64,000 bases of DNA from Candidatus Omnitrophota bacterium (lineage in GTDB: Bacteria > Omnitrophota > Gorgyraeia > JAUYCX01), in the NCBI GenBank assembly GCA_030692045.1, contig JAUYCX010000049.1, positions 42,643-106,642 on the forward strand, read 5' to 3'. The notes under the pieces were generated by a model, which was not told the DNA's origin, ran no database searches, and saw nothing but the letters and a program-made list of their open reading frames with translations. This document shows, one piece after another, positions 21,234 to 53,963 of this stretch (within the stretch, counting starts at the first letter, position 1; each line of letters begins with the position of its first letter). The position numbers were made by a program, and so were the translations under genes.

Positions 21234-21878
21234 ATGAAAAAGATTATTCTTCTTGGCGGAGGCGGGCACTGTAAGGTAGTTATAGAGGCTATATTATCTC
21301 AGAAAAAATTTAAAATTGCAGGCATTATTGATAAGAAAAAAAATATAGGAAAAAAAATTTTAGGCTTCTCCATAATCGGAGAAGACAACGATGTAGAAGA
21401 CTATTTTAAAAAGGGAGTTAAAAATTGTTTCATTGCGGTAGGAAGTATCGGCAATACAAATTTAAGGATTAATCTCTTTAACCTAGCAAAAAATTTTGGT
21501 TTTAAATTTCCTAATGTAATCCACCCAGGGGCTTTAATATCTAAATTTGCAAAAGTTGGCGAGGGTAACTATATTGCTCCCGGCGTTATAATTAATGCAG
21601 GGGTAATCATCAGAAATAATTGCATTATAAATACCGCTACAACAATTGATCACGACTGCCAAATTGGAGATTTTGTGCATATAGCTCCGGGCGTAACGAT
21701 AAGTGGTGGTGTAAAAGTAGGACAATCTACGCATATAGGTACAGGTAGTTCAGTTATTCAATCTATTAAAATTGGTAAGAATACAATTATTGGTGCGGGA
21801 AGCATGGTTACCAATGATATTGATAATAATATTATCGCATACGGAAATCCTTGTAGAAAAGTAAAAGAAAATGTCTAA
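21234..21878 (+). CDS. Sugar O/N-acetyltransferase, NeuD/LegH-like (start refined from the ORF-track start)
   Basis: MKKIILLGGGGHCKVVIEAI; left-handed beta-helix hexapeptides (GNYIAPGVIINAGVIIRNNCIINTATTIDHDCQIGDFVHIAPG). Confidence 0.88.
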   Translation: MKKIILLGGGGHCKVVIEAILSQKKFKIAGIIDKKKNIGKKILGFSIIGEDNDVEDYFKKGVKNCFIAVGSIGNTNLRINLFNLAKNFGFKFPNVIHPGALISKFAKVGEGNYIAPGVIINAGVIIRNNCIINTATTIDHDCQIGDFVHIAPGVTISGGVKVGQSTHIGTGSSVIQSIKIGKNTIIGAGSMVTNDIDNNIIAYGNPCRKVKENV

Positions 21879-22878
21879 GAAGGTTTTTATTATCGCAGAG
21901 GCAGGCGTAAATCATAATGGTTCCTTGGTTATCGCCACAAGATTGGTAGATGCTGCTGAGAAATCAGGAGTTGATGCTATAAAATTTCAGACCTTCAGAG
22001 TAGAAAATATTGCGACTATAAATTCACCAAAAGCAGCGTATCAAAAGAAAACAAGCAGAGATATGCAATCGCAATTTGAGATGTTAAAAAAACTGCAGTT
22101 AAATATAAATGCGCATAGAAAACTCATAGATTACTGCAAGAAAAAGAAAATAATGTTTTTATCCAGCGCTTTTGATTTAGAGAGTATAGATTTGCTTCGC
22201 CATTTAGGGCAACAACTTTTTAAAATTCCTTCAGGCGAGATAACAAATCTTCCTCTTTTAAGAAAAATTGGAGGCCTTAAAAAGAAAATTATATTATCTA
22301 CGGGCATGGCTACTTTGGATGAAATTAAAAATACCCTTGCAGTCCTGATTAAGGCTGGCACAAAAAAAGAAGATATTACTGTTCTGCATTGTAATACCGA
22401 ATATCCTACTTCCATGGAGGATGTAAATTTAAGAGCAATGCTCTCTATGAGAGATATATTTAAAGTTAATGTGGGTTATTCTGACCATACTTTAGGGATA
22501 GAGGTTCCAATTGCAGCAGTTGCCTTGGGGGCTTCAGTTATTGAGAAGCATTTTACCCTCAAAAGAAATATGAAAGGTCCTGATCATAAAGCAAGCCTCG
22601 AGCCGAAAGAATTGAAACAGATGGTTAATTCAATAAGAAATATTGAGAAGGCATTGGGCAACAGGATTAAAAGGCCTTCTAAATCTGAGATTAAAAATAG
22701 GGATATTGTGAGAAAAAGTATTGTTGCGGCTAAATCAATAAAGAAAGGCGAGAGGTTTGACGAAATAAATATTACTGTGAAACGTCCTGCAAGGGGAATA
22801 AGCCCAATGAAATGGGATGAGGTAATAGGTCTAAGGGCAAGAAAAGATTTTAAAGAAGACGAATTAATAAAAATATGA
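21871..22878 (+). CDS. legI: N-acetylneuraminate/legionaminate synthase family
   Basis: IIAEAGVNHNGSLVIA, GYSDHTLGIEVPIAAVALGASVIEKHFTL, C-terminal SAF-like RPARGISPMKWDEVIG. Confidence 0.9.
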   Translation: MSKKVFIIAEAGVNHNGSLVIATRLVDAAEKSGVDAIKFQTFRVENIATINSPKAAYQKKTSRDMQSQFEMLKKLQLNINAHRKLIDYCKKKKIMFLSSAFDLESIDLLRHLGQQLFKIPSGEITNLPLLRKIGGLKKKIILSTGMATLDEIKNTLAVLIKAGTKKEDITVLHCNTEYPTSMEDVNLRAMLSMRDIFKVNVGYSDHTLGIEVPIAAVALGASVIEKHFTLKRNMKGPDHKASLEPKELKQMVNSIRNIEKALGNRIKRPSKSEIKNRDIVRKSIVAAKSIKKGERFDEINITVKRPARGISPMKWDEVIGLRARKDFKEDELIKI

Positions 22879-29684: not shown

Positions 29685-31601
29685 ATGAGACGCTTAAAAT
29701 TAAATATTTGGGTTGAGAAATTGAATTTAATAGATTTCTTTTATTTTTTACCGAAAAGTCTATTTAGCAATAGTAATATTTATTATGATGAGCACGAAGT
29801 TACTAAGTCAACTCAGTGGATTTTATATTTCTTAAATAAACTTAACATAAGTTTTAATTTCTTTCCTGCCTACTTATTTTTAAATAAGAAAGATGAGCAA
29901 GGATTTGCTTTAAACTACCAAATGGAAGATAATCTTGATGCCTGCCTTGAGATATTTTGCAAAAAATATATTTCACGTCAGCCAGAGCGGTTTAAAAGAA
30001 TGCTTAAATCATATCTTGCATTATATCTATATTATCGAGTTACCTTTATTACCATGGTAGCTCATAAACCTGAATTTAACTGTCATGAACGCAAAAATAT
30101 TTTACATCTTGCTAAGGGTCCTTGTAATTCTATAGTTATTAAATTTTATAAAGAAAAAGGTTATTATCTTCAAGAATCATGCTTAAGTTGGCAGACTTTT
30201 AAGTATTATCTTCGGCCCCTGTATCTTTTGTTGAAAATTTTAATTTCTAAATTTAGTCTTAAAAGGATGAACTATAATCTTATTAACATTAAACCATCAA
30301 TCTGGATTGAATATGCTCACGAACAAATCGTTGATTTTTCATTTTGGAGCGAAATGATTAATAGGCAAAAGTTCGATATAGCATATTATTTAGATAGAGA
30401 TGATGACCCTTCTATCGAACAAGCGGCAGAAATAATAGAAAAGCGCGGATTTAAATGGATAAATTTACATTTTAATTCATTGTTAAGATTGGCTAATCTT
30501 AAATTAAAAGAAATTAAAGAACTCATTGTTGTTCTTTGTTGTTTCTATCCTTCTTATCCTTTATGGTTCAGGGTATTTAAATTCGAATATAAAATGTGGT
30601 TTTTGCTTTATCGGTCAGTGGTAGAATGTTTTAAAGTAAAGATTCTTATTCAGCATCAGGAGCACTCATGGTTTCAAGAGGCGCAAGTCAATGCCCTGGA
30701 AAAGTCAGGTGGGATAATGGTAGGTTTTCATTGGTCAAATTTTCCCTTTACAAAAGAATCGTTTCATCTTACCCCTGAGCATGCATATTTTGTTTGGGGA
30801 CAGGCGAAATTAAATTGGGTGAAAGAAAAAGGTAACACTTGCCGCTATATACTTCCTTCTGGGCTTTGGGTTACAAAAAATCGAATTCAAAACTCTAAAT
30901 TAGAAGATTTTGTAAGAAACAAGTCTTTCGTTATAGCTATTTTTGATGCATCGGTGGTATACAATATGTATCATTCTCCAGAGAATCTGAGTATCTTTTA
31001 TTTAGCACTTTTAAAATTGTTAGAAAAAAATAAGATGTGGGGAGGAATTGTCAAAAGTAAGAAATGGGATATCGAGGCTCTTTCTTTTCTTCCTAATGGT
31101 AACGAAATTATCTCAATGATAAAATCACTTAGCCAGGAAAATAGGCTTTTATATTTAAAACGTGTCTTGTCACCGATAGCGGCTTCCTCATATGCAAATC
31201 TATCAGTATGTTCTGAACTAAGTTCAGCTGGAATTATAGCTGGAATATGTGGCTATCGTGCAATTCATTGGGATTGCTCTGGCTGGCTACACCACCCATT
31301 TTATAAAGAAAAGAATCAGAAAATTATCTTTCAGGATTTAGAAGAATTTATAGAGGCGATAATTAAAATTAGCAATGGAGATAAAGAAATTGGTGATTTT
31401 TCTAAATGGAGGCAGAAATTTAATCATTTTGATGATTTTCAGGCTTCAAGACGAGTAGGAAAATTTATCCAATCTTTTATGGAAAAATCAAATGGTATTG
31501 ATTTTGAGAAGCCTTTATCTCTTGCAGTAAAAGAGTATATTGAAGAAAACAAAATTGAAGATAGTTTTTTTACAATTAGTGACTGGTGGGGCAGTGGATA
31601 G
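29685..31601 (+). CDS. Large putative surface-carbohydrate glycosyltransferase-like protein
   Basis: QHQEHSWFQEAQVNALEKSGGIMVGFHWS, HAYFVWGQAKLNWVKEKG, CSELSSAGIIAGICGYRAIHWDCSG; same architecture class as the 39171 and 53964 genes. Confidence 0.4.
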   Translation: MRRLKLNIWVEKLNLIDFFYFLPKSLFSNSNIYYDEHEVTKSTQWILYFLNKLNISFNFFPAYLFLNKKDEQGFALNYQMEDNLDACLEIFCKKYISRQPERFKRMLKSYLALYLYYRVTFITMVAHKPEFNCHERKNILHLAKGPCNSIVIKFYKEKGYYLQESCLSWQTFKYYLRPLYLLLKILISKFSLKRMNYNLINIKPSIWIEYAHEQIVDFSFWSEMINRQKFDIAYYLDRDDDPSIEQAAEIIEKRGFKWINLHFNSLLRLANLKLKEIKELIVVLCCFYPSYPLWFRVFKFEYKMWFLLYRSVVECFKVKILIQHQEHSWFQEAQVNALEKSGGIMVGFHWSNFPFTKESFHLTPEHAYFVWGQAKLNWVKEKGNTCRYILPSGLWVTKNRIQNSKLEDFVRNKSFVIAIFDASVVYNMYHSPENLSIFYLALLKLLEKNKMWGGIVKSKKWDIEALSFLPNGNEIISMIKSLSQENRLLYLKRVLSPIAASSYANLSVCSELSSAGIIAGICGYRAIHWDCSGWLHHPFYKEKNQKIIFQDLEEFIEAIIKISNGDKEIGDFSKWRQKFNHFDDFQASRRVGKFIQSFMEKSNGIDFEKPLSLAVKEYIEENKIEDSFFTISDWWGSG

Positions 31602-31615
31602 AGAGGGAGCATAGC

Positions 31616-32653
31616 TTGAAGTTCCAAACGTTATTTTCTAAGAGCAAAAAAAATCCAGTATATATTATTGCAGAAATAGGTGGCAATTTTCTCACTTACA
31701 AAGAGGGAACAAAATTGATAGATGCCGCAAAAGATGTTGGAGTTGACTGCATAAAACTTCAGACATATCGTGCGCAAACCCTTGTTACTAAGAATGCCTT
31801 ATTCGATATGAAAAATACTGGCAAGGTCTCCCAATACGATTATTTTAAAAAGTATGAATTATCTAAAGAACTGCATAAAAAGATTTTCGATTACGCTGAA
31901 TTTAGTGGTTTAGATTGGTTTTCTACGCCTTCGCATCAGAGTGATGTAGACATGCTTGAATCATTGGGTGCAAAGGCATATAAGGTTGGTGCGGATGATG
32001 CAGTTAATATACCTTTTTTGAGGATTATTGCTAAAAAGAAGTTACCGATTTTTCTTTCTACGGGTATGTGTACCCTGAAAGAGGTTAGAGAATCGGTTGT
32101 GGCAATCTTAAGGGAAGGTAATAAAAAAATTGTTATTATGCATACAGTCTCTGTGTATCCAACTTATCCCGAACAGGTCAATTTAAATGCTATAAAAACG
32201 CTGCAGAAAGAATTTCCGGATTTTGTGATTGGATATTCAGATCATACTCAGTCTAGCCTTGCCTGTATAGTTTCTGTTGTTATAGGAGCAAGGGTTATCG
32301 AAAAGCATTTCACTCTGGATAAGAAAACTAAAGGTCCCGACCATATGCTTTCAGCTGATCCTTCTGAGATGAAATACATTGTTGAGAGCATAAGAACAAT
32401 TGAAAAAATGTTTGGGACAGGTATAAAGAAACCTGTTGAGCAAGAATTAAAGAACAGAACAAATAATAGAAAAAGTATTGTAGCGATAAGGGATATAAAA
32501 AAGGGTGAACATTTTTCTATAGAGAATCTTTCGTTTAAAAGGCCGGGAACTGGAATATCGCCGAAGTATTTATCGAAGTTATTGGGGAAAGAAGCAAAAA
32601 GAGACATAAGAGAAGATGAGTTAATCTGCAGAGAAGACTTAGATGGAAGATAA
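31616..32653 (+). CDS. spsE: Second N-acetylneuraminate synthase family protein (SpsE/NeuB-like); start uncertain (ATG 31586 or TTG 31616)
   Basis: YIIAEIGGNFLTYKEGTKLID, IGYSDHTQSSLACIVSVVIGARVIEKHFTLDKKTKGPDHMLSADP, C-terminal SAF-like RPGTGISPKYLSKLLG. Confidence 0.9.
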   Translation: MKFQTLFSKSKKNPVYIIAEIGGNFLTYKEGTKLIDAAKDVGVDCIKLQTYRAQTLVTKNALFDMKNTGKVSQYDYFKKYELSKELHKKIFDYAEFSGLDWFSTPSHQSDVDMLESLGAKAYKVGADDAVNIPFLRIIAKKKLPIFLSTGMCTLKEVRESVVAILREGNKKIVIMHTVSVYPTYPEQVNLNAIKTLQKEFPDFVIGYSDHTQSSLACIVSVVIGARVIEKHFTLDKKTKGPDHMLSADPSEMKYIVESIRTIEKMFGTGIKKPVEQELKNRTNNRKSIVAIRDIKKGEHFSIENLSFKRPGTGISPKYLSKLLGKEAKRDIREDELICREDLDGR

Positions 32654-42534: not shown

Positions 42535-43845
42535 ATGTTACACAAAAACATAATATTCAATTCGAAGCAGTTATTAGAATTTTATAGTTGCAATAGACAG
42601 AAATGGGAGGAATTCTATCCTTCAGAGAAGTGGGTGTTTGAGAAGATAGCTAAAGATAACAAGATTTTTGGTGATGTTTTAGATGTGGGATGTGCGTGTG
42701 GAGGACTCGGGGTTGCGTTAAGTAATAGGTTTATTCTTAATTCTTATACAGGAGTTGATATTCACAAAGATGTTATAGGCTGGGCAAAAGGGGAGCAGAA
42801 GCTAACTATAACTGCAAATTTTATTTGCGGCGACGTCGTAAATCTGGATATAAATAGACAGTATGATACAGTAGTTTCATTAAGCTGTGCAGATTTTAAC
42901 ATCGAAACAAATACAATAATTAAAAAATGCTGGTCTTTTGTAAAGCCTGGTGGATATTTTATTGCGTCTTTAAGGCTTACCGACAAAAAGGGGATAAATA
43001 ATATACAAAGGAGTTTGTTGGAGAGGATATTGAACGAAGCGTATGACCTTGGTGTTCGAAGTGTTGGTTTTTATACTACCGGAGAACCATTTGTTTCAAA
43101 TAAATTGGCGGAGAGCGTTGCCATGGCCAAGCGCATTGGATTTTATTATGTGTATATTACAACGAATGGAGTCCTGGCAACTCCTGATCGTATGCGTACT
43201 GTCGTTGAAGCGGGACTGGACAGTGTAAAATTTTCGATAAATGCCGGGACTCCGGATACGTACAGACGAATCCATGGCGTAGATGCTTTTGATAAAGTTT
43301 TGAACAATCTTAAATTTATTGTAGAATACAGAAAAAAAATAGGCAGGCCATTTAAAATATATGTTTCGTATGTAGTTATACGGCAAAATCAAGAAGAATG
43401 GGAGATGCTCAAGCATTTGGTTGCTCCCTTTGCGGATTATGTTTTGTTCTTCGCTGTCTACAACCAGGGTGGAATGATTGGTGAGATTGATCAATTATCG
43501 CCAGCCGAAGAGCTGAAGAATAAATTCCCTTGTACGAAAAAGGCACCTTGTAGCATGGTATTTAATCGTCTTCATATTACGTGCAAAGGATACCTGACCA
43601 TCTGTTGCGTTGATTATCAGAACTATCTCGTTGTTGCGGATCTGCATAAGAGCTGCCTGAAAGAGGCGTGGTGCAGTGATATGTTCGTTGAGATACGGCG
43701 CCGACATCTTCAAGATATGCTTAAAGGGACACAGTGTTATAATTGTATATACGACAAACATGAAAAAACTAGACCGCTTATGCCAGAATACGCCACTATT
43801 TACAAACCTAATACGTATCTGGCTTGTATGAAGAAATCAAAATAA
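42535..43845 (+). CDS. Chimeric ORF: N-terminal class I methyltransferase (aa 1-160) joined in frame to a radical SAM/SPASM C-terminal part lacking CxxxCxxC; probably non-functional or neofunctional
   Basis: aa 1-160 align residue by residue with the 47807 methyltransferase; then LGVRSVGFYTTGEPF..ITTNGVLATPDRMRTVVEAGLDSVKFSINA..FNRLHITCKGYLTICCVDY..CYNC, the distal half of a SPASM protein. Confidence 0.75.
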   Translation: MLHKNIIFNSKQLLEFYSCNRQKWEEFYPSEKWVFEKIAKDNKIFGDVLDVGCACGGLGVALSNRFILNSYTGVDIHKDVIGWAKGEQKLTITANFICGDVVNLDINRQYDTVVSLSCADFNIETNTIIKKCWSFVKPGGYFIASLRLTDKKGINNIQRSLLERILNEAYDLGVRSVGFYTTGEPFVSNKLAESVAMAKRIGFYYVYITTNGVLATPDRMRTVVEAGLDSVKFSINAGTPDTYRRIHGVDAFDKVLNNLKFIVEYRKKIGRPFKIYVSYVVIRQNQEEWEMLKHLVAPFADYVLFFAVYNQGGMIGEIDQLSPAEELKNKFPCTKKAPCSMVFNRLHITCKGYLTICCVDYQNYLVVADLHKSCLKEAWCSDMFVEIRRRHLQDMLKGTQCYNCIYDKHEKTRPLMPEYATIYKPNTYLACMKKSK

Positions 43846-44005
43846 AATGTCAAGCACAGTTAAATCAAAGGATTGTGACAATTCCCGGATGCGTTTCTAC
43901 ATGCGTACCTTTGGCTGGACATTGGATTTCTAAAAGACGGACTATGGAGAGGATTGTGGCAGCTTTGATGAAGCCAGAGAAAAATAGTTTTAAGCCAGCA
44001 GGAGT

Positions 44006-44027
44006 TCCCCGTCTGTAAAAGCGGGGG
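44006..44027. repeat. GC-rich inverted repeat (CCCCG..CGGGG hairpin) in intergenic DNA
   Basis: ccccgtctgtaaaagcgggg: five perfect pairs plus G:T wobble and an A:T pair. Confidence 0.6.
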
Positions 44028-44060
44028 TATCTAAACATTCTGAGACTACAGGGGGGCTAT

Positions 44061-45635
44061 ATGAACAAACCTACAATTGTTTTAGTAGCTTTATATAGAT
44101 ACCAAAATTTTCCAGTTCGAATTATGCATCCATTACTTAAAAAGATTGATGGCATTGAGCCACATTCTATTTTCTTTAAGAATTGCGATACAAATATATT
44201 CAATCCTCCAACAGGTCTAGAAGAGAAGTTATTCGTTGATCTTATAACTAAGTTGAATCCAAAACTTGTTGGCTTTAGTGTCCTTTCACCTTATGCACCT
44301 ATAGCAAGACGATTAACCAAACTTGTTAAAGATAATTCTTCATCCTTAGTAATTTGGGGTGGTGTCCATCCTACAATATCTCCAGAGAGTTGTATTGACG
44401 AAGCTGACATAGTCTGCATCGGAGAGGGAGAAGGCGCGATGACAGACCTTGCAAGGCATCTGGCGGATGGCAAGCCCTATGAATCGATCAAGAATTTATG
44501 GGTGAAAGGCAGTGACCGCATTATCAAAAATCCCATGAGGCCCTTGATACAAGATTTAGATTCTCTTCCTTTTCCATCCTATGGAGATAATACATATTAT
44601 TTTATTAATTCTAACAAAATAACAAAAGATGATCCCTCGCTTTTAGATAATTATTTTTGGGTTCAAACCTCCCGCGGATGCCCTTATGTTTGTTCATACT
44701 GTGTTAATAGTCTCCTGCGGACACTATTTAAGGATATTGGGCCTTATACCCGGAGAAGGTCAGTGAATAATATCATAAAGGAGATTAAAGAAAATTTAGG
44801 TTTATCAGGAAATAGGACCGAACGCTTGTATTTTATTGATGAGGTTTTTGGTGCCGAAGAATCCTGGCTTAATGAATTCGAACTGAAGTATAAAAAAGAG
44901 GTCGGGAAACCTTTTGTCGTCGAGTACAATCCAAAAGTCATAAATTCTACCATTCTTGATAAATTAGTTAGTGCCGGCCTTGATACAATAAGTTTTGGTA
45001 TTCAGACGGGTTCGGACGACATAAGGAATCGGATATTTCATAGGCCGGGGAAGAACGACGAAATCCTGGACCTCGTCAAAAAAATAAGCGAGTATAATGT
45101 AAAAATAAAATATGATCTAATATTAGATAATCCATATGAGACCGAGCAATCTTTAAAAGGCACCATCGGATTTTTGCTAAAATTGCCTAAGCCCTTATGG
45201 TTTAATTTATACTCACTTTCATATTTTCCTAATTATCCTTTAACGAAAATGGCGATAGAGGACAAACATATAAAGCCGGAAGAAGTTGAGATTGATAGGC
45301 TGATGGCGAGAATAACAAGGAATTGGGCGTATGTCCCTAGGTTATTACCATATACCGAGAAGCAGATACTCCAAAATATTATTTGGTTAATTGTATGGAA
45401 CCACGTCAAGAACAGCACTATAAAATTCTCTGTATTTGGTGATTCGTTGAGTGCCAAATTATGTTTAAACTACTTTAATCTCAAATCGATTGTTTTAGGC
45501 AAGGTGTTCGGAGTGGGAGGTATTCTTTGGAGAAACGTTTGGATTATGTATATTACCAATGGAGTAAAATATATATTAAAAGGTGATTGGAAAACCCTTG
45601 TTCTTAAAATTAAAAAACATATATTGAAAAAATAA
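44061..45635 (+). CDS. B12-binding-domain radical SAM protein
   Basis: VIWGGVHPTISPESCI, TSRGCPYVCSYCVNSLLR, SFGIQTGSDDIRNRIF. Confidence 0.88.
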   Translation: MNKPTIVLVALYRYQNFPVRIMHPLLKKIDGIEPHSIFFKNCDTNIFNPPTGLEEKLFVDLITKLNPKLVGFSVLSPYAPIARRLTKLVKDNSSSLVIWGGVHPTISPESCIDEADIVCIGEGEGAMTDLARHLADGKPYESIKNLWVKGSDRIIKNPMRPLIQDLDSLPFPSYGDNTYYFINSNKITKDDPSLLDNYFWVQTSRGCPYVCSYCVNSLLRTLFKDIGPYTRRRSVNNIIKEIKENLGLSGNRTERLYFIDEVFGAEESWLNEFELKYKKEVGKPFVVEYNPKVINSTILDKLVSAGLDTISFGIQTGSDDIRNRIFHRPGKNDEILDLVKKISEYNVKIKYDLILDNPYETEQSLKGTIGFLLKLPKPLWFNLYSLSYFPNYPLTKMAIEDKHIKPEEVEIDRLMARITRNWAYVPRLLPYTEKQILQNIIWLIVWNHVKNSTIKFSVFGDSLSAKLCLNYFNLKSIVLGKVFGVGGILWRNVWIMYITNGVKYILKGDWKTLVLKIKKHILKK

Positions 45636-45724
45636 AATAAGCAAAATTATTTTCTTCAATAAGACTATTGCAAAATTCGCAATGGTAGATACATTCGACG
45701 GCGCCAAACCCCGCCTTTTGGTTT

Positions 45725-45764
45725 GACTACGCTTAACATCCTCGAACCATCATTAAGCGAAGTC
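45725..45764. repeat. REP-like palindromic element (GACTACGCTTAA ... TTAAGCGAAGTC)
   Basis: 12-bp arms with a single mismatch flanking a 16-nt loop in a 169-bp non-coding gap. Confidence 0.65.
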
Positions 45765-45804
45765 GAAGGATTAGCCTGGGGTGTGTTGAATGGGATGATT
45801 TAAA

Positions 45805-46905
45805 ATGATAGAACCTAAGAAAAATATAAAACCTTTGGAAAGAGTTGTGCCGAATTGTATGGATCGCATCGGGCAAATAGTGCGGTTGGAAAGAAATGAA
45901 CGTACCATCCCTTTTTCGGCTAGCCATTTGAAGAAAATTTTAAGCAGTATAAATCCCGAAGAAATTGTTGCTTATCCAAACCTTGAGCCGTTTTATGAAA
46001 AACTTTCCAAGTGGTTGAAAGTGGACAGGGAAGAATTACTTCTTACCAGCGGTTCAGATACTGGGATAAGGGCTGTGTATGAAGTTTATGTGAAAGAAGG
46101 CGATGAAGTCTTGATGTTTCCTCCGACTTATGGAATGTATTCAGTCTATTGCGATATGTTTGGAGGGGTAAGAAGAGAAGTGTTTTATAATGAAGATTTT
46201 TCATTACCGTTAGATAAAGTACTTAATGCAATTAATAGTAAGACAAAATTGGTAGCCATCGCAAATCCTAACCATACCGCAACGGTATTAAAAGAACCAG
46301 AACTGATTCGGATAATTAAAAAAGCGAGAGATAGTCAGGCTTTAGTCTTTGTTGACGAAGCGTATTTTAATTTTTATGAAAAAACAGTGGTGCCGCGCAT
46401 TAATGAGTTCGATAATTTAATTGTTATACGGACATTTTCTAAGGCCTTTGGAATAGCGTCATTACGAATTGGTTATTTGGTGGCTAATAAGAATATAATT
46501 AAACAGTTATACAAAGTTAAACTTACCCACGAAATTACAGGTATTTCCGCAAGGTTTGGCGAATATCTTTTAGATCACTTAGATATTATGGAGAGTTACG
46601 TTCAAGATGTTAGGGCGGGGATAAAGTATTTATCAAAGGAATTTGAAAAGCTGGGAATTGCCACTCCTAAGACTCACACTAACTTTTTATTCGCAAAACT
46701 TCCCTTAGGAGTGGATGGAAAACAAATAGTCAGCTTGCTAAAAGAAAGGCGTTTTTGTATCGCAGGCCCTTTTTCGATAACGCCGATTGAAGGATTTATA
46801 AGAGTTACGGTTGGACCGGTTAAACAGATGAGGGGGTTTATTTCGGCTTTTAAACTAGTTTATGAACAGGCGCGAAAAGGCAGGCTTAATGGTGAACATG
46901 CTTAA
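45805..46905 (+). CDS. PLP-dependent aminotransferase class I/II, HisC/CobD-like (copy 1)
   Basis: LLTSGSDTGIRAVYEVYV, VFVDEAYFNFYE, RTFSKAFGIASLRIGY; motif NPNHTATV replaces NPNNPTG. Confidence 0.85.
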   Translation: MIEPKKNIKPLERVVPNCMDRIGQIVRLERNERTIPFSASHLKKILSSINPEEIVAYPNLEPFYEKLSKWLKVDREELLLTSGSDTGIRAVYEVYVKEGDEVLMFPPTYGMYSVYCDMFGGVRREVFYNEDFSLPLDKVLNAINSKTKLVAIANPNHTATVLKEPELIRIIKKARDSQALVFVDEAYFNFYEKTVVPRINEFDNLIVIRTFSKAFGIASLRIGYLVANKNIIKQLYKVKLTHEITGISARFGEYLLDHLDIMESYVQDVRAGIKYLSKEFEKLGIATPKTHTNFLFAKLPLGVDGKQIVSLLKERRFCIAGPFSITPIEGFIRVTVGPVKQMRGFISAFKLVYEQARKGRLNGEHA

Positions 46906-47743
46906 ATTAATCGTAAAAAAGATTTTAGCGGTGTTTAAAATTGATGTCAGAATTTTTATCCAAAAGGTAAGTTATCTTTCTATCAAGCAGACATTAAGAG
47001 AAAATGGATTTAGCAAATTGGCGGAAGAACTGCGAACGATAAAACCGGATATATCAAGGCAATATTCAAATACAGAAGAATTTAATGAGTACTGGGAACT
47101 TAAACTGCGTGTAAAACACGCTTTTCAATGTTCTTTAATGCTTAAGGTTTTAGAGTCTTTGCCTTGCGGCAAGTTAACTATAACTATAGTAGATATTGGT
47201 GATTCAGCAGGCACTCATATGGAATATCTTAAGGAGTTGTCTAAGGGCAGGTTTGATATAAACACTATTAGCGTTAATCTTGACCCCATTGCAGTAGAGA
47301 AGATAAAAGCCCAAGGCCAAATTGCTATTCTTTGCCGGGCTGAAGAGTTGAATTTAGAAAACGATCATAAAGTTGATTTATTTACATCTTTTCAGATGGT
47401 TGAACACTTACATAATCCGGCATTATTTTTTAGGCGTTTAGCAAAAGAATCACCCTGTAACAGAATGGTAGTAACCGTTCCATATGTAAAGATAAGCCGC
47501 GTAGGTTTGCATTTCATACACAAGAATATTCAAAAAGTAACGTTTGCCGAAGACGAGCATATTTTCGAATTAAATCCGCAGGATTGGACATTATTGATGT
47601 TGCATTCCGGCTGGAGAGTTATCTATAGCCAGATTTATTATCAGTATCCCAGAGAAATACCAGCATTGAGTTTTTTGTTATCGAGGTTTTGGAGAAGATA
47701 TGATTTCGAGGGTTTTTGGGAGTTATTTTGGAGAAAGATATGA
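46898..47743 (+). CDS. Class I methyltransferase-like protein (copy 1), C-terminus frameshifted relative to copy 2
   Basis: VDIGDSAGTHMEYLKEL, FTSFQMVEHLHNPALFFRRLAKES; paralogue of the 51435 gene. Confidence 0.75.
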   Translation: MLKLIVKKILAVFKIDVRIFIQKVSYLSIKQTLRENGFSKLAEELRTIKPDISRQYSNTEEFNEYWELKLRVKHAFQCSLMLKVLESLPCGKLTITIVDIGDSAGTHMEYLKELSKGRFDINTISVNLDPIAVEKIKAQGQIAILCRAEELNLENDHKVDLFTSFQMVEHLHNPALFFRRLAKESPCNRMVVTVPYVKISRVGLHFIHKNIQKVTFAEDEHIFELNPQDWTLLMLHSGWRVIYSQIYYQYPREIPALSFLLSRFWRRYDFEGFWELFWRKI

Positions 47744-47806
47744 GTTTTTCGGATTATTATCAGGATTGGGAAGGTGAGGTTTCTCCACAAAAGAAAGAAA
47801 TGCTTT

Positions 47807-48610
47807 ATGTTAAGTAGGAATATTGTTTATAAATCAAAACAGATTTTAGAATTCTATAGTTCTCATCGCCAGCGTTGGAAAGATTTTTACCCTTCTGAAC
47901 AGTGGGTATTTAAAAAGGTAGCAGCCAAGAAAAAAATAATAGGAGATGTGCTGGATGTAGGTTGCTCGTGCGGCGGTCTTGCCGCGGCGTTATCTCAAAA
48001 GTTTAAAATCAATTCATATACAGGCGTTGATATTAATGAGGAAACCATTAAATGGGCTCGTAATAATCAGAAGTTACCAATAGCAAAAAAATTTATCTCT
48101 GGAGACATTCTAAAGCAAAAGTTAAATAGACAATATGATTGGGTAGTTTCATTAAGCTGCGCGGATTGGAATATTGAAACTAATAAAATAATTGAATATT
48201 GTTGGAATAAAGTAAAGCCGGGAGGATATTTTATTATATCGCTGAGAATTACAAAGGCGGCAGGAATTAATGATATGGATAGAAGCTATCAATGCATTGA
48301 TTTTTCAGGAAAAGAGGATAATCCGGAGGTTGTCAATTATGTGGTTTTTAATTTTTTGGATACTTTAGCCATGTTTGGGGGGCTTTGGCCAAGGCCCAAA
48401 ATAATCGGAGCTTATGGCTATTGGGGAAAGCCGTCCCCAACCGCAAGGACGCCTTTTAAGAAACTTGTCTTCGCAGTTTATTATATAAAGAAAGACACAG
48501 AAGATCTTAACTCTAATACTCCAACGCTAGAGATTGAGCTCAATTTGCCATTTGATTTTTTATCAGCGGCTATCTTAAGAAAATCCAGAGTCGGTTGCCC
48601 TACAAATTAG
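47807..48610 (+). CDS. Class I SAM-dependent methyltransferase
   Basis: GDVLDVGCSCGGLAAALSQKF, VVSLSCADWNIETNKIIEYCWNKVKPGGYFIISLRI. Confidence 0.8.
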   Translation: MLSRNIVYKSKQILEFYSSHRQRWKDFYPSEQWVFKKVAAKKKIIGDVLDVGCSCGGLAAALSQKFKINSYTGVDINEETIKWARNNQKLPIAKKFISGDILKQKLNRQYDWVVSLSCADWNIETNKIIEYCWNKVKPGGYFIISLRITKAAGINDMDRSYQCIDFSGKEDNPEVVNYVVFNFLDTLAMFGGLWPRPKIIGAYGYWGKPSPTARTPFKKLVFAVYYIKKDTEDLNSNTPTLEIELNLPFDFLSAAILRKSRVGCPTN

Positions 48611-48623
48611 AAAGGTAAATTTA

Positions 48624-49619
48624 ATGTTTAATAAAGATAGAATCGTAGTCGAGGTAAATTCCAATTTTCACCACGTTGGAGGTGAAAATCTCTTTGAACA
48701 AAAAAATAATAAATTTAACGAATATAGAAAGAAATGGGAAGAATGGCCTAAGACATTTCATGCCGGATTTTTTCCCCTTTTTATAGACATTGAAGTAACA
48801 AGCGTTTGTAATCTAAAATGTCCTTTTTGCGCTACTACTTACTGGAATAAGGCTATAAATAAAGGATATATTTCCTTTACTATTGTTAAGAGAATAATCG
48901 ATGAGGGAGCAGTTAATGGTTTGTATGGTGTTAAATTTAATCTTAGAGGAGAACCATTGCTTCATCAGCAGATACACGAGTTTGTAAAATATGCCAAGCA
49001 GAAAGGGCTCATAGATGTTTACTTCAATACCAATGCGTTGTTTCTTTCAGAAGAGATTTCCAGAAAGCTTATTGATGCCGGACTTGACAGGATTTCTATT
49101 TCCTTCGAGGGCTATACAAAAGATGTTTATGAAAAACATAGGGTGAATTCTAACTTTGAGACAGTGGTGGCAAATATAGAAAATTTACAGTCCTTAAAAA
49201 AGAAACTTAATGTTCGCCATCCTAAAGTAAGAATTCAGTCAGTAATGCTTTCCGCTATTAAGAAAAATTTTGAAAAATATAGAGAATTTTGGTCCTCGCG
49301 TGTTGATGAGATAGGATATCTCGATTATAAAAAAATTAAAATAAAAAGTAAGAATATTAAATATCCTTGGGTATGCCCCCAAATCTGGCAAAGAATGGCC
49401 GTATGGTGGGATGGAACAATATTACCCTGTAACCATGATGACAAGGGGTTACTTGCATTAGGAAATATAGCTAAGACCACAATAAAAGAAGTATGGAATT
49501 CCCAGAGATTAAATACCATTAGGAATATCCATAAAACAGGCATGGCCCATATGATAAATGCCTGTAATGGTTGTTATTTAAGGGATAGCGAGATACTAAA
49601 GCTTATGAAGAAGGCATGA
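48624..49619 (+). CDS. Radical SAM/SPASM protein
   Basis: VTSVCNLKCPFCATTYWNK, LRGEPLLHQQIHEF, TILPCNHDDKGLLALGN..CNGCYLR. Confidence 0.88.
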   Translation: MFNKDRIVVEVNSNFHHVGGENLFEQKNNKFNEYRKKWEEWPKTFHAGFFPLFIDIEVTSVCNLKCPFCATTYWNKAINKGYISFTIVKRIIDEGAVNGLYGVKFNLRGEPLLHQQIHEFVKYAKQKGLIDVYFNTNALFLSEEISRKLIDAGLDRISISFEGYTKDVYEKHRVNSNFETVVANIENLQSLKKKLNVRHPKVRIQSVMLSAIKKNFEKYREFWSSRVDEIGYLDYKKIKIKSKNIKYPWVCPQIWQRMAVWWDGTILPCNHDDKGLLALGNIAKTTIKEVWNSQRLNTIRNIHKTGMAHMINACNGCYLRDSEILKLMKKA

Positions 49620-49620
49620 G

Positions 49621-50355
49621 ATGATTGTAGCTTTTTTAATGGGAAGAAAAGGCAGCAAAGGATTTCCGGGCAAAAACTTATATCCTGTGATGGGTAAGCC
49701 ACTAGCATATTATTCTATGAGAGCAGCAAAGAATTGTCCTGAGATTGATAAAATTTATCTCTCTACAAATGATGAAAGATTGATAAGGCTTGCTAAGAGA
49801 AACGATATTGAAATTATCAAAAGACCCGCCAGTTTATGCAGCGATAATGCTTTAGGGGAAGATGTTTATGTTCATGCTTATAATTATGTTAAGAATAATG
49901 ATAGAAAAAATAAGATTGAAATGGTTGTATTATTAATGTGCAATGTTGCAACTGTTACACCCGGAATCATATCAGTAGGAATAAATATTCTAAGAAAGCA
50001 TCCTGAATACGATTCAACTGTAACAGTTTCAAAATATAATATGTGGAGTCCTTTGCGTGCACGCAAAATTGATAAAAATGGACTACTTAAGCCTTTTGTG
50101 CCATTTAATGTTTTTGGCAATACAAAGGCGCTAAATTGCGACCGAGATTCCCAGGGAGATGTTTGGTTTGCGGATATGGGCGTTTCTATTGTTAGGCCAC
50201 GATGCCTTGAGCATATTGAAAGGGGACTTCTCCCGCAGAAATGGATGGGCAAAAAAATATACCCTTTGAAACAATGGGGCGGGATAGATGTAGATTATGA
50301 GTGGCAGTTACCGCAAGTAGAATATTGGCTTAAAAGCAAGAATTTACAAAAATAG
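49621..50355 (+). CDS. Acylneuraminate-cytidylyltransferase-family protein
   Basis: MIVAFLMGRKGSKGFPGKNLYPVMGKPLAYYSMRAAKN, YLSTNDERLIRLAKRNDIEIIKRPASLCSDNALGEDV. Confidence 0.85.
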   Translation: MIVAFLMGRKGSKGFPGKNLYPVMGKPLAYYSMRAAKNCPEIDKIYLSTNDERLIRLAKRNDIEIIKRPASLCSDNALGEDVYVHAYNYVKNNDRKNKIEMVVLLMCNVATVTPGIISVGINILRKHPEYDSTVTVSKYNMWSPLRARKIDKNGLLKPFVPFNVFGNTKALNCDRDSQGDVWFADMGVSIVRPRCLEHIERGLLPQKWMGKKIYPLKQWGGIDVDYEWQLPQVEYWLKSKNLQK

Positions 50356-50374
50356 CATTTAGTTCATTTAGACT

Positions 50375-51454
50375 ATGTTAAAGGAAAAACAACATTTAAA
50401 AAATGTAAACCGGACAAATATAGAAGAAATAACAAGAAAAGGGTTTTTGCGTTTAGATATGAATGAATGCCCTTTCGGCTTACCGAATGGCTTTATTAAA
50501 AGAACACTTTCTCGCATAGATGGGAATTTTGTCGCGACATATCCGGGATATTCGCGCTCGCAAAATAAAATAGCAGAATATAATAAGCTACGTTCAGAAA
50601 ACATATGCCTCGCCAACGGCTCGGATGCTGCAATTAAATATTTATTTGAAGCGTACGTTTCTCCGGGTGACAGGGTGTTGTTGACGGATCCTACTTTTGC
50701 GATGTACAAAGTCTACTGTAAGATATTTGATGCGCAACCAATAACGGTTCCTTATAAACCAGACTTATCTTTTCCTGGGAAGGAATTTGCTGAGCGAATT
50801 TCATATGACATAAAAATGGCCGTTGTAGTAAATCCGAATAATCCTACTGGTAGCATTATTCCGGAAGACGAATTACTGAGCATACTCCGCAGGGCGCAGA
50901 ATAAAGGTGTATTGTTGATAGTGGATGAAGCGTATTTCTATTTTTATACTGGCACGGTAATCAGGGAAATTATGCATTTCGATAATTTAGTTGTATTGCG
51001 GACTTTCTCCAAATTATGCGGGATGGCAGGGTTAAGAATTGGGTATGCCGCGGCAAATCCCAAGATAATCAAAAACCTTAAGAAGGTAAGGCCTACCTAT
51101 GATGTGAATGGAATAGCGGCGTTATTTGCGGAGGAGATTTTGGATGACCGCGCTATTCTTAAGTCCCTATTAGTCGAAACTAAAAAAGGCAAGAGGTATT
51201 TAATTAAGCAATTAAACGAGAACGGAATTAGTTACCGTGATGGTTATGCAAATTTCATATTAATTAAGTGCGAAATAAACCCTCTTACAATAGCGAACAA
51301 GTTAAGGCAAGATAACATTTTAGTTGGGTTTGGTTTTGAGCAACTTTTTTTAAGGGACTTTATAAGGGTGACGCTGGGTGATAAAAAAAGCATGATTCAA
51401 TTCTGGGGATCATTCATCAAGATATGGAGAAAAAATGTTAGGGAGGGTCGTTAA
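50375..51454 (+). CDS. PLP-dependent aminotransferase, HisC/CobD-like (copy 2)
   Basis: LANGSDAAIKYLFEAYVSPGDRVL, VVNPNNPTGSII, LIVDEAYFYFY, RTFSKLCGMAGLRIGYAAANP. Confidence 0.88.
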   Translation: MLKEKQHLKNVNRTNIEEITRKGFLRLDMNECPFGLPNGFIKRTLSRIDGNFVATYPGYSRSQNKIAEYNKLRSENICLANGSDAAIKYLFEAYVSPGDRVLLTDPTFAMYKVYCKIFDAQPITVPYKPDLSFPGKEFAERISYDIKMAVVVNPNNPTGSIIPEDELLSILRRAQNKGVLLIVDEAYFYFYTGTVIREIMHFDNLVVLRTFSKLCGMAGLRIGYAAANPKIIKNLKKVRPTYDVNGIAALFAEEILDDRAILKSLLVETKKGKRYLIKQLNENGISYRDGYANFILIKCEINPLTIANKLRQDNILVGFGFEQLFLRDFIRVTLGDKKSMIQFWGSFIKIWRKNVREGR

Positions 51455-52310
51455 AAAAATACTTATGAATTGTGGTATAGATTTAAAGAAGATGTTTGAA
51501 AGAGTATTTTCTTGCTCTATACTACTTGCATTAAAAGAAAACTGCCTGAATAATTTGGTAGAAGATTTAAGAAAAATCATTCCCGATATCAGCGATCAGT
51601 ATACCTCAGACAGGGAATCATTTAACGCTTATTTAGAGTTAAAAATAAGAGGGATGCATGCGTTTCAATGCCAGTTAATGCTTAAAGCAATACAGAAAAT
51701 GAATGCGCGCGATATTATGGTGGTAGATATAGGCGATTCATCCGGAACGCATATGCACTATTTACGAGAATTGACCAAAAAGACACATGCCATAGATTCC
51801 ATAAGCGTGAATTTGGACATTAATGCCATTGAGAGAATTAAAGCAAAGGGACAGAAAGCTATTCTCTGCCGTGCCGAAGAGCTAGAGTTGAAAGACCGAG
51901 ACGCGGATCTGTTTACCTCGTTTGAAATGGTAGAACATTTACATAATCCCGCTGTTTTCTTCCACCGTTTAGCCAAGAAAACAAAATGCAATCGTATGCT
52001 TATAACCGTTCCTTATCAGAAGAGAAGCAGGGTAGGGCTCTATCGTATACGCGAGGCTTCTTACAAACCTTGCAATGCCGAGCAGGAACATATTTTTGAA
52101 TTAAGTCCAGAGGATTGGTCTTTGTTAATGCTTCATTCGGGATGGAGAGTTTTGTATAGCGAAGTCTATCATCAATATCCGTACAAAATACCAATAGCTA
52201 GTTATTTTTTAGGTCGATTCTGGAGAAAATATGACTTCGAGGGTTTCTGGGGAGCAATTTTAGAGAAGGATACAAGTTTTTCAGATTATTATCAGGATTG
52301 GGAAATTTAG
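51435..52310 (+). CDS. Class I methyltransferase-like protein (copy 2)
   Basis: VDIGDSSGTHMHYLREL, FTSFEMVEHLHNPAVFFHRLAKK; C-terminus EKDTSFSDYYQDWEI. Confidence 0.75.
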   Translation: MLGRVVKKILMNCGIDLKKMFERVFSCSILLALKENCLNNLVEDLRKIIPDISDQYTSDRESFNAYLELKIRGMHAFQCQLMLKAIQKMNARDIMVVDIGDSSGTHMHYLRELTKKTHAIDSISVNLDINAIERIKAKGQKAILCRAEELELKDRDADLFTSFEMVEHLHNPAVFFHRLAKKTKCNRMLITVPYQKRSRVGLYRIREASYKPCNAEQEHIFELSPEDWSLLMLHSGWRVLYSEVYHQYPYKIPIASYFLGRFWRKYDFEGFWGAILEKDTSFSDYYQDWEI

Positions 52311-53238: not shown

Positions 53239-53933
53239 GTGAAAGGAAATAATATGTATTTGCAAAATAATAAATTTTGTTCTTGGTTTGAAGAAAATAA
53301 TGAACGACTTCTTCAAATCTTTGATTTCATAAGTATTGTTTATTTACTTTTTTGTTTTTCATATACAAGGTTCATCGTAGTCCACAATCGTTATTACGCT
53401 TTCTTTAGAATGTCTTGGGATCCAACACTATTTCCTCATGATTTATTAAAAGGAGGTTTTCTCTACAGACTAAGTATAGTATTATTTAAACTTATTGGAT
53501 TTTTGCGCCTATTGTGAAAGTCGTGGGTGAGAAAAATTTCCTTTTTGCAATATTTTTTATTAATAACTTTTTTGTATTATTAATTATGTATAATATTGTT
53601 ATGCCTTTTGATTCGATAAACCTTGCAGCTCTTTTTGTTATTTTATTATTTTCGCCTTGGTAGTTATTTCCAGGAACTGATATTTCAGTAGTATACAACA
53701 GAGGATATATTTCTAAAGTTGATTTTTCTGCGGACAGCGTTAAAGCATAGATATTTACTGTGTCTAGTCTGAGTAAGGATGAAATTAGAGGATTGCTTAA
53801 GACATTTTCTCTTTATGTTAAATTTCCCAAATCCGATTATGAGTTAATTAAGAGAGCCGAAAGATTTGACGAATAAGTAAATAGAATATTTTTGGAACTA
53901 AGCGAGCGCTATAGACGAGAGTATTTTCAATAA
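53239..53933 (+). pseudogene. Decayed region: truncated membrane-protein ORF (92 aa) followed out of frame by further membrane sequence and a radical SAM C-terminal remnant interrupted by three stops
   Basis: Frame starting 53514 reads VKVVGEKNFLFAIFFINNFFVLLIMYNIVMPFDSINLAALFVILLFSPW*LFPGTDISVVYNRGYISKVDFSADSVKA*IFTVSSLSKDEIRGLLKTFSLYVKFPKSDYELIKRAERFDE*VNRIFLELSERYRREYFQ*. Confidence 0.75.
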
Positions 53934-53963
53934 AGTCATTGTGCAAATAATTGAATAAGAAAG

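Follow-up and report, generated by a model that had tools for sequence, protein, structure and literature searches.

An in-frame chimera of a truncated methyltransferase and a headless radical SAM/SPASM protein, probably a deletion scar in a putative surface-glycan gene cluster

The plus-strand open reading frame 42535-43845 of the window, the term used here for the whole 64,000-nucleotide stretch of DNA that was analysed, encodes a chimera of 436 amino acids: the 5' portion comes from a class I methyltransferase gene and continues, without a change of frame, into the 3' portion of a radical SAM/SPASM gene. We regard it as a deletion scar, most likely recent, left by a single deletion between adjacent genes (probability about 0.6). 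An earlier note, made from the DNA sequence, had described a breakpoint that fused two genes in frame, and this reading is supported: the two halves are separate genes in relatives, and the fusion was found nowhere else.

Results

The methyltransferase part consists of residues 1-160 (42535-43014, plus strand) and comprises strands beta1 to beta5 of the Rossmann fold. It corresponds to residues 12-171 of the protein encoded by the neighbouring ORF at 47774 (47807 in the earlier numbering) with 63% identity, and the alignment stops at Ser160, which confirms the resemblance and its end point noticed before. Methyltransferase motif I is present after beta1 (GDVLDVGCACGGL, residues 46-58). Pfam placed a methyltransferase domain at residues 48-143, Methyltransf_25 scoring 42.5 bits (cut-off 27). 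The 107 C-terminal residues of the intact paralogue are absent from the methyltransferase part of the chimera.

The remainder of the protein, residues 161-436 (43015-43842, plus strand), is a radical SAM/SPASM part that, compared with relatives from the same class, is missing about 55-60 N-terminal residues including the CxxxCxxC loop. Pfam assigned Radical_SAM to residues 162-293, the profile being entered only at position 33 of 166, and SPASM (PF13186; 29.1 bits, cut-off 21.5) to residues 339-404, a C-terminal Cys-rich domain predicted to bind an auxiliary cluster. A motif search of the whole chimeric protein found no CxxxCxxC, so the proposal that the distal part of a SPASM radical SAM enzyme without this motif begins at nt 43015 proved correct. 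Since the SPASM relatives align with the chimera from Leu161 on, the junction, with Ser160 as the last residue of methyltransferase homology and Leu161 as the first of SPASM homology, can be placed at 43014/43015 to within about one codon. At this position the relative in genome G161 reads LLERLLQEAYELG and the chimera LLERILNEAYDLG, LLERLL of the former corresponding to LLERIL of the latter.

In the structural model of the chimera (mean pLDDT 78.9), methyltransferase strands 1-5 are followed by a link of low confidence at residues 146-154 and then by a barrel, which starts with its first helix and second strand. The model of the intact paralogue (47774) has two more long strands, at 197-207 and at 220-229, which we take from knowledge of the fold to be beta6 and beta7; the complete seven-stranded core that includes these two strands is not found in the chimera. 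The radical SAM barrel of the chimera would likewise be without its beta1 strand and its [4Fe-4S] loop. The SAM-cleaving [4Fe-4S] cluster sits on the CxxxCxxC loop. In the radical SAM superfamily it is a [4Fe-4S] cluster that binds and cleaves SAM, as PMC10470005 states. Taking into account that beta6 and beta7 of the methyltransferase, as well as beta1 and the [4Fe-4S] loop of the barrel, are missing, neither activity is expected, and neither half of the chimera should be catalytically competent. Some of the loss may be made good by the intact methyltransferase encoded at 47774. Among the 50 fold-search matches listed for the chimera model, methyltransferases and radical SAM enzymes were listed separately, and no solved protein contained both parts.

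Conservation within the two halves was high. All 32 positions that are invariant among 14 relatives were kept in the SPASM half, and 52 of the 54 invariant positions in the methyltransferase half. Parts predicted to be essential for catalysis are lost, as in a pseudogene; a loss of conserved residues is not apparent, and the 436 codons are free of stops and frameshifts. As no decay is seen in either half, either the join happened recently or the ORF has been kept for another reason, under some constraint.

Sixteen loci in the bacterial and archaeal collection, mainly from gut Clostridia, match the SPASM half with up to 46% identity. Relatives with 41-47% identity occur in five genomes of the same class (G161, G180, G167, G255 and G319), and none of the genomes returned was nearer than this class. 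The full-length relatives carry the Cys-rich head, most of them having 54-63 residues ahead of the start of homology with the chimera, and none is fused to a methyltransferase. The search for a full-length donor gene, suggested by the earlier note, thus yielded headed relatives but no recent donor in another lineage, the best match being 47% identical. The headed SPASM gene is directly preceded by a methyltransferase gene in four of these five same-class genomes; the gap is 16 bp in G180, 10 bp in G167 and 13 bp in G319, in all three of which an aminotransferase gene follows directly, and the fourth case is G161. These upstream methyltransferases belong to families other than that of the chimera. 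Clostridial relatives (L039, L042) adjoin genes for NeuB, UDP-GlcNAc 2-epimerase and cytidylyltransferase. In one gut Clostridia locus (L034:5824-7248) the SPASM relative has a C-terminal cytidylyltransferase-like domain (PF01467), which is a fusion of complete domains within this family.

The methyltransferase half has few relatives. They were found in G035, G292 and G328 (46-54% identity), in each case as a separate full-length gene next to an aminotransferase gene, so that each component of the chimera has unfused, full-length counterparts. The earlier note had named widespread conserved homologues with the same fused architecture as an observation that would speak against a breakpoint. No match spanning both halves was detected in the class and phylum samples, in 72,556 plasmids or in viral contigs, and a widespread conserved fusion is thereby ruled out. 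In the paper collection searched, none dealt with polysaccharide loci in which a methyltransferase is fused to a SPASM protein.

The chimera belongs to a gene arrangement (methyltransferase, SPASM, other gene, aminotransferase, methyltransferase) that occurs twice in tandem in the window, at 42535-52310, all genes being on the plus strand. In module 1 the chimera is followed by genes for a B12-binding radical SAM protein (44061-45635), a class I/II aminotransferase (45805-46905) and a second methyltransferase (46862-47743). Module 2 consists of the intact methyltransferase gene that is the paralogue of the chimera's first half (47774-48610), 13 bp after it an intact radical SAM/SPASM gene (48624-49619), a cytidylyltransferase gene (49621-50355), an aminotransferase gene mirroring 45805 (50375-51454) and a second methyltransferase gene mirroring 46862 (51435-52310). 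Identity between the modules is 63% for the first methyltransferases, 60% for the last ones, 35% for the aminotransferases and 24% for the SPASM parts. The SPASM protein encoded at 48624 belongs to a subfamily different from that of the chimera's second half; with 24% identity and a different clade, it is ruled out as the source of the latter.

NeuB and cytidylyltransferase genes stand beside the Clostridial SPASM relatives and are also present in the window, and on these grounds the cluster most likely serves a nonulosonic acid or a related surface glycan. The window carries two NeuB-family genes (21871-22878 and 31586-32653) besides its cytidylyltransferase genes, which suggests two nonulosonic-acid-type pathways in one cluster. 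At 53239-53960 a 92-aa ORF precedes sequence that looks coding in another frame but is interrupted by stops. This is probably a decayed membrane-protein gene of the same cluster, and its decayed appearance indicates that gene loss does occur there.

The chimera is separated from the gene after it by a unique non-coding spacer (43846-44060, 44.7% GC). It is not a decayed known gene or a genome repeat, having no Pfam match and being present as a single copy in the genome, and it gave only weak matches (E 0.001-0.008) in same-class genomes. The missing methyltransferase tail and SPASM head gave only chance-level matches in the flanking spacers. A short CCCCG/CGGGG inverted repeat at 44007-44026 in this GC-rich spacer has no T run after it. 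Very low GC (about 18-20%) was observed at 45543-45675, which covers the end of the 44061 gene and the start of the next spacer.

GC content is 34.6% in the first 480 nt of the chimera and 40.3% in the remaining 831 nt, compared with 34.8 ± 2.1% for the genes of the window (n = 55), and this step is the largest within-gene step among 15 long genes. Together with the following spacer (43015-44060) the SPASM part has 41.2% GC. The rise at the junction that had been noticed by eye is therefore real, but it is moderate, and a two-breakpoint change-point scan did not choose 43015 as the best boundary; composition alone would thus not prove a join.

Discussion

The interpretation of the junction as a breakpoint is further supported by the occurrence of the same types of gene, adjacent and in the same order, in module 2 of the window and in four of the five same-class SPASM relatives. 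If the deletion took place as we envisage it, the starting state would have been a surface-glycan cluster in which a methyltransferase gene stood a few bases ahead of a radical SAM/SPASM gene of full length. Illegitimate recombination would then have removed about 0.5 kb (estimated 502-517 bp), namely roughly the last 107 codons of the methyltransferase gene, the spacer and some 55-60 codons at the start of the SPASM gene, and the leftover ends would have been joined in frame by chance. The lineage would thus once have held both intact genes side by side and lost both by one deletion. Three points speak against this course of events: the exact parental pair was not seen elsewhere, the methyltransferases upstream in the relatives being of other families; the 41.2% GC of the SPASM part with its spacer would also fit import of an already truncated piece; and no parental SPASM sequence is near enough to reveal microhomology at the junction.

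The import just mentioned is, in our estimate, the best of the alternatives and still an unlikely one. It supposes that a SPASM fragment truncated at its 5' end, together with the spacer behind it (approximately 43015-44060), came from a source of higher GC and replaced the 3' part of the methyltransferase gene by illegitimate recombination. Besides base composition, the missing close relative of the SPASM half is in its favour, as is the direct adjacency of the methyltransferase and aminotransferase genes in G328, which means that the intervening material could here have been inserted. However, no methyltransferase tail is left downstream, the change-point scan leaves 43015 unmarked, and a SPASM gene repeatedly has a methyltransferase gene immediately ahead of it, so that import of a broken gene is not needed.

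We consider it less probable again that the contig of this draft assembly was wrongly joined at 43014/43015. The genome (2.19 Mb in 119 contigs, completeness 95.7%) has an estimated contamination of 7.53%, and GC differs on the two sides of the junction, as might be seen in an artefact. Against this, the assembly has a single copy of the junction sequence, well inside a 207-kb contig and with no repeat at the breakpoint. The join is also free of Ns, and it is in frame and at matching limits of both genes, which an assembler jump does not usually produce.

That the chimera was kept as a useful new protein, e.g. as a binding partner of other cluster enzymes, would agree with its uninterrupted frame, the preserved invariant positions and the short branch of its methyltransferase half, but is very improbable, because it was found in one genome only, both halves are without the parts needed for known chemistry, and a recent event accounts equally well for the absence of decay. 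The more specific idea that the truncated SAM-binding Rossmann domain and the headless SPASM barrel combine into a single stable fold, retained for a non-catalytic role in surface-glycan synthesis, has if anything slightly less to recommend it.

If the chimera is real, it offers a clear snapshot of how duplicated surface-glycan gene modules yield chimeric ORFs through deletion. Automatic annotation would name the product a methyltransferase or a radical SAM enzyme, and it should be neither.

Like class I methyltransferases (Methyltransf_25/Methyltransf_11), the chimera has motif I (DVGCACGG) and strands beta1 to beta5, but it is without beta6 and beta7 and the whole C-terminal region of its paralogue. 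Residues 161-436 resemble the radical SAM/SPASM proteins of surface-glycan loci in retaining the SPASM domain and the greater part of the partial TIM barrel, and differ from them in that the N-terminal 55-60 residues with CxxxCxxC are missing. The pseudo-SAM/SPASM family TIGR04347 is named for SPASM proteins that lack a proper radical SAM portion, a property shared by the chimera; in the chimera, however, the whole head is gone and a methyltransferase part stands in its place. The TIGR04347 profile gave a weak match to residues 164-271 (36 bits, cut-off 525), which rules out membership.

Composite genes that arise when a deletion fuses two neighbours are similar to the chimera in that same-strand genes of neighbouring types are joined in frame and the components are separate in relatives. 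The fused architecture was, by comparison, not seen in more than one lineage, and the join falls inside both folds, so that no complete domains are linked; for the latter reason the chimera looks like a loss of function and not like a multidomain enzyme. It represents an ordinary kind of event, and no new kind of system is indicated.
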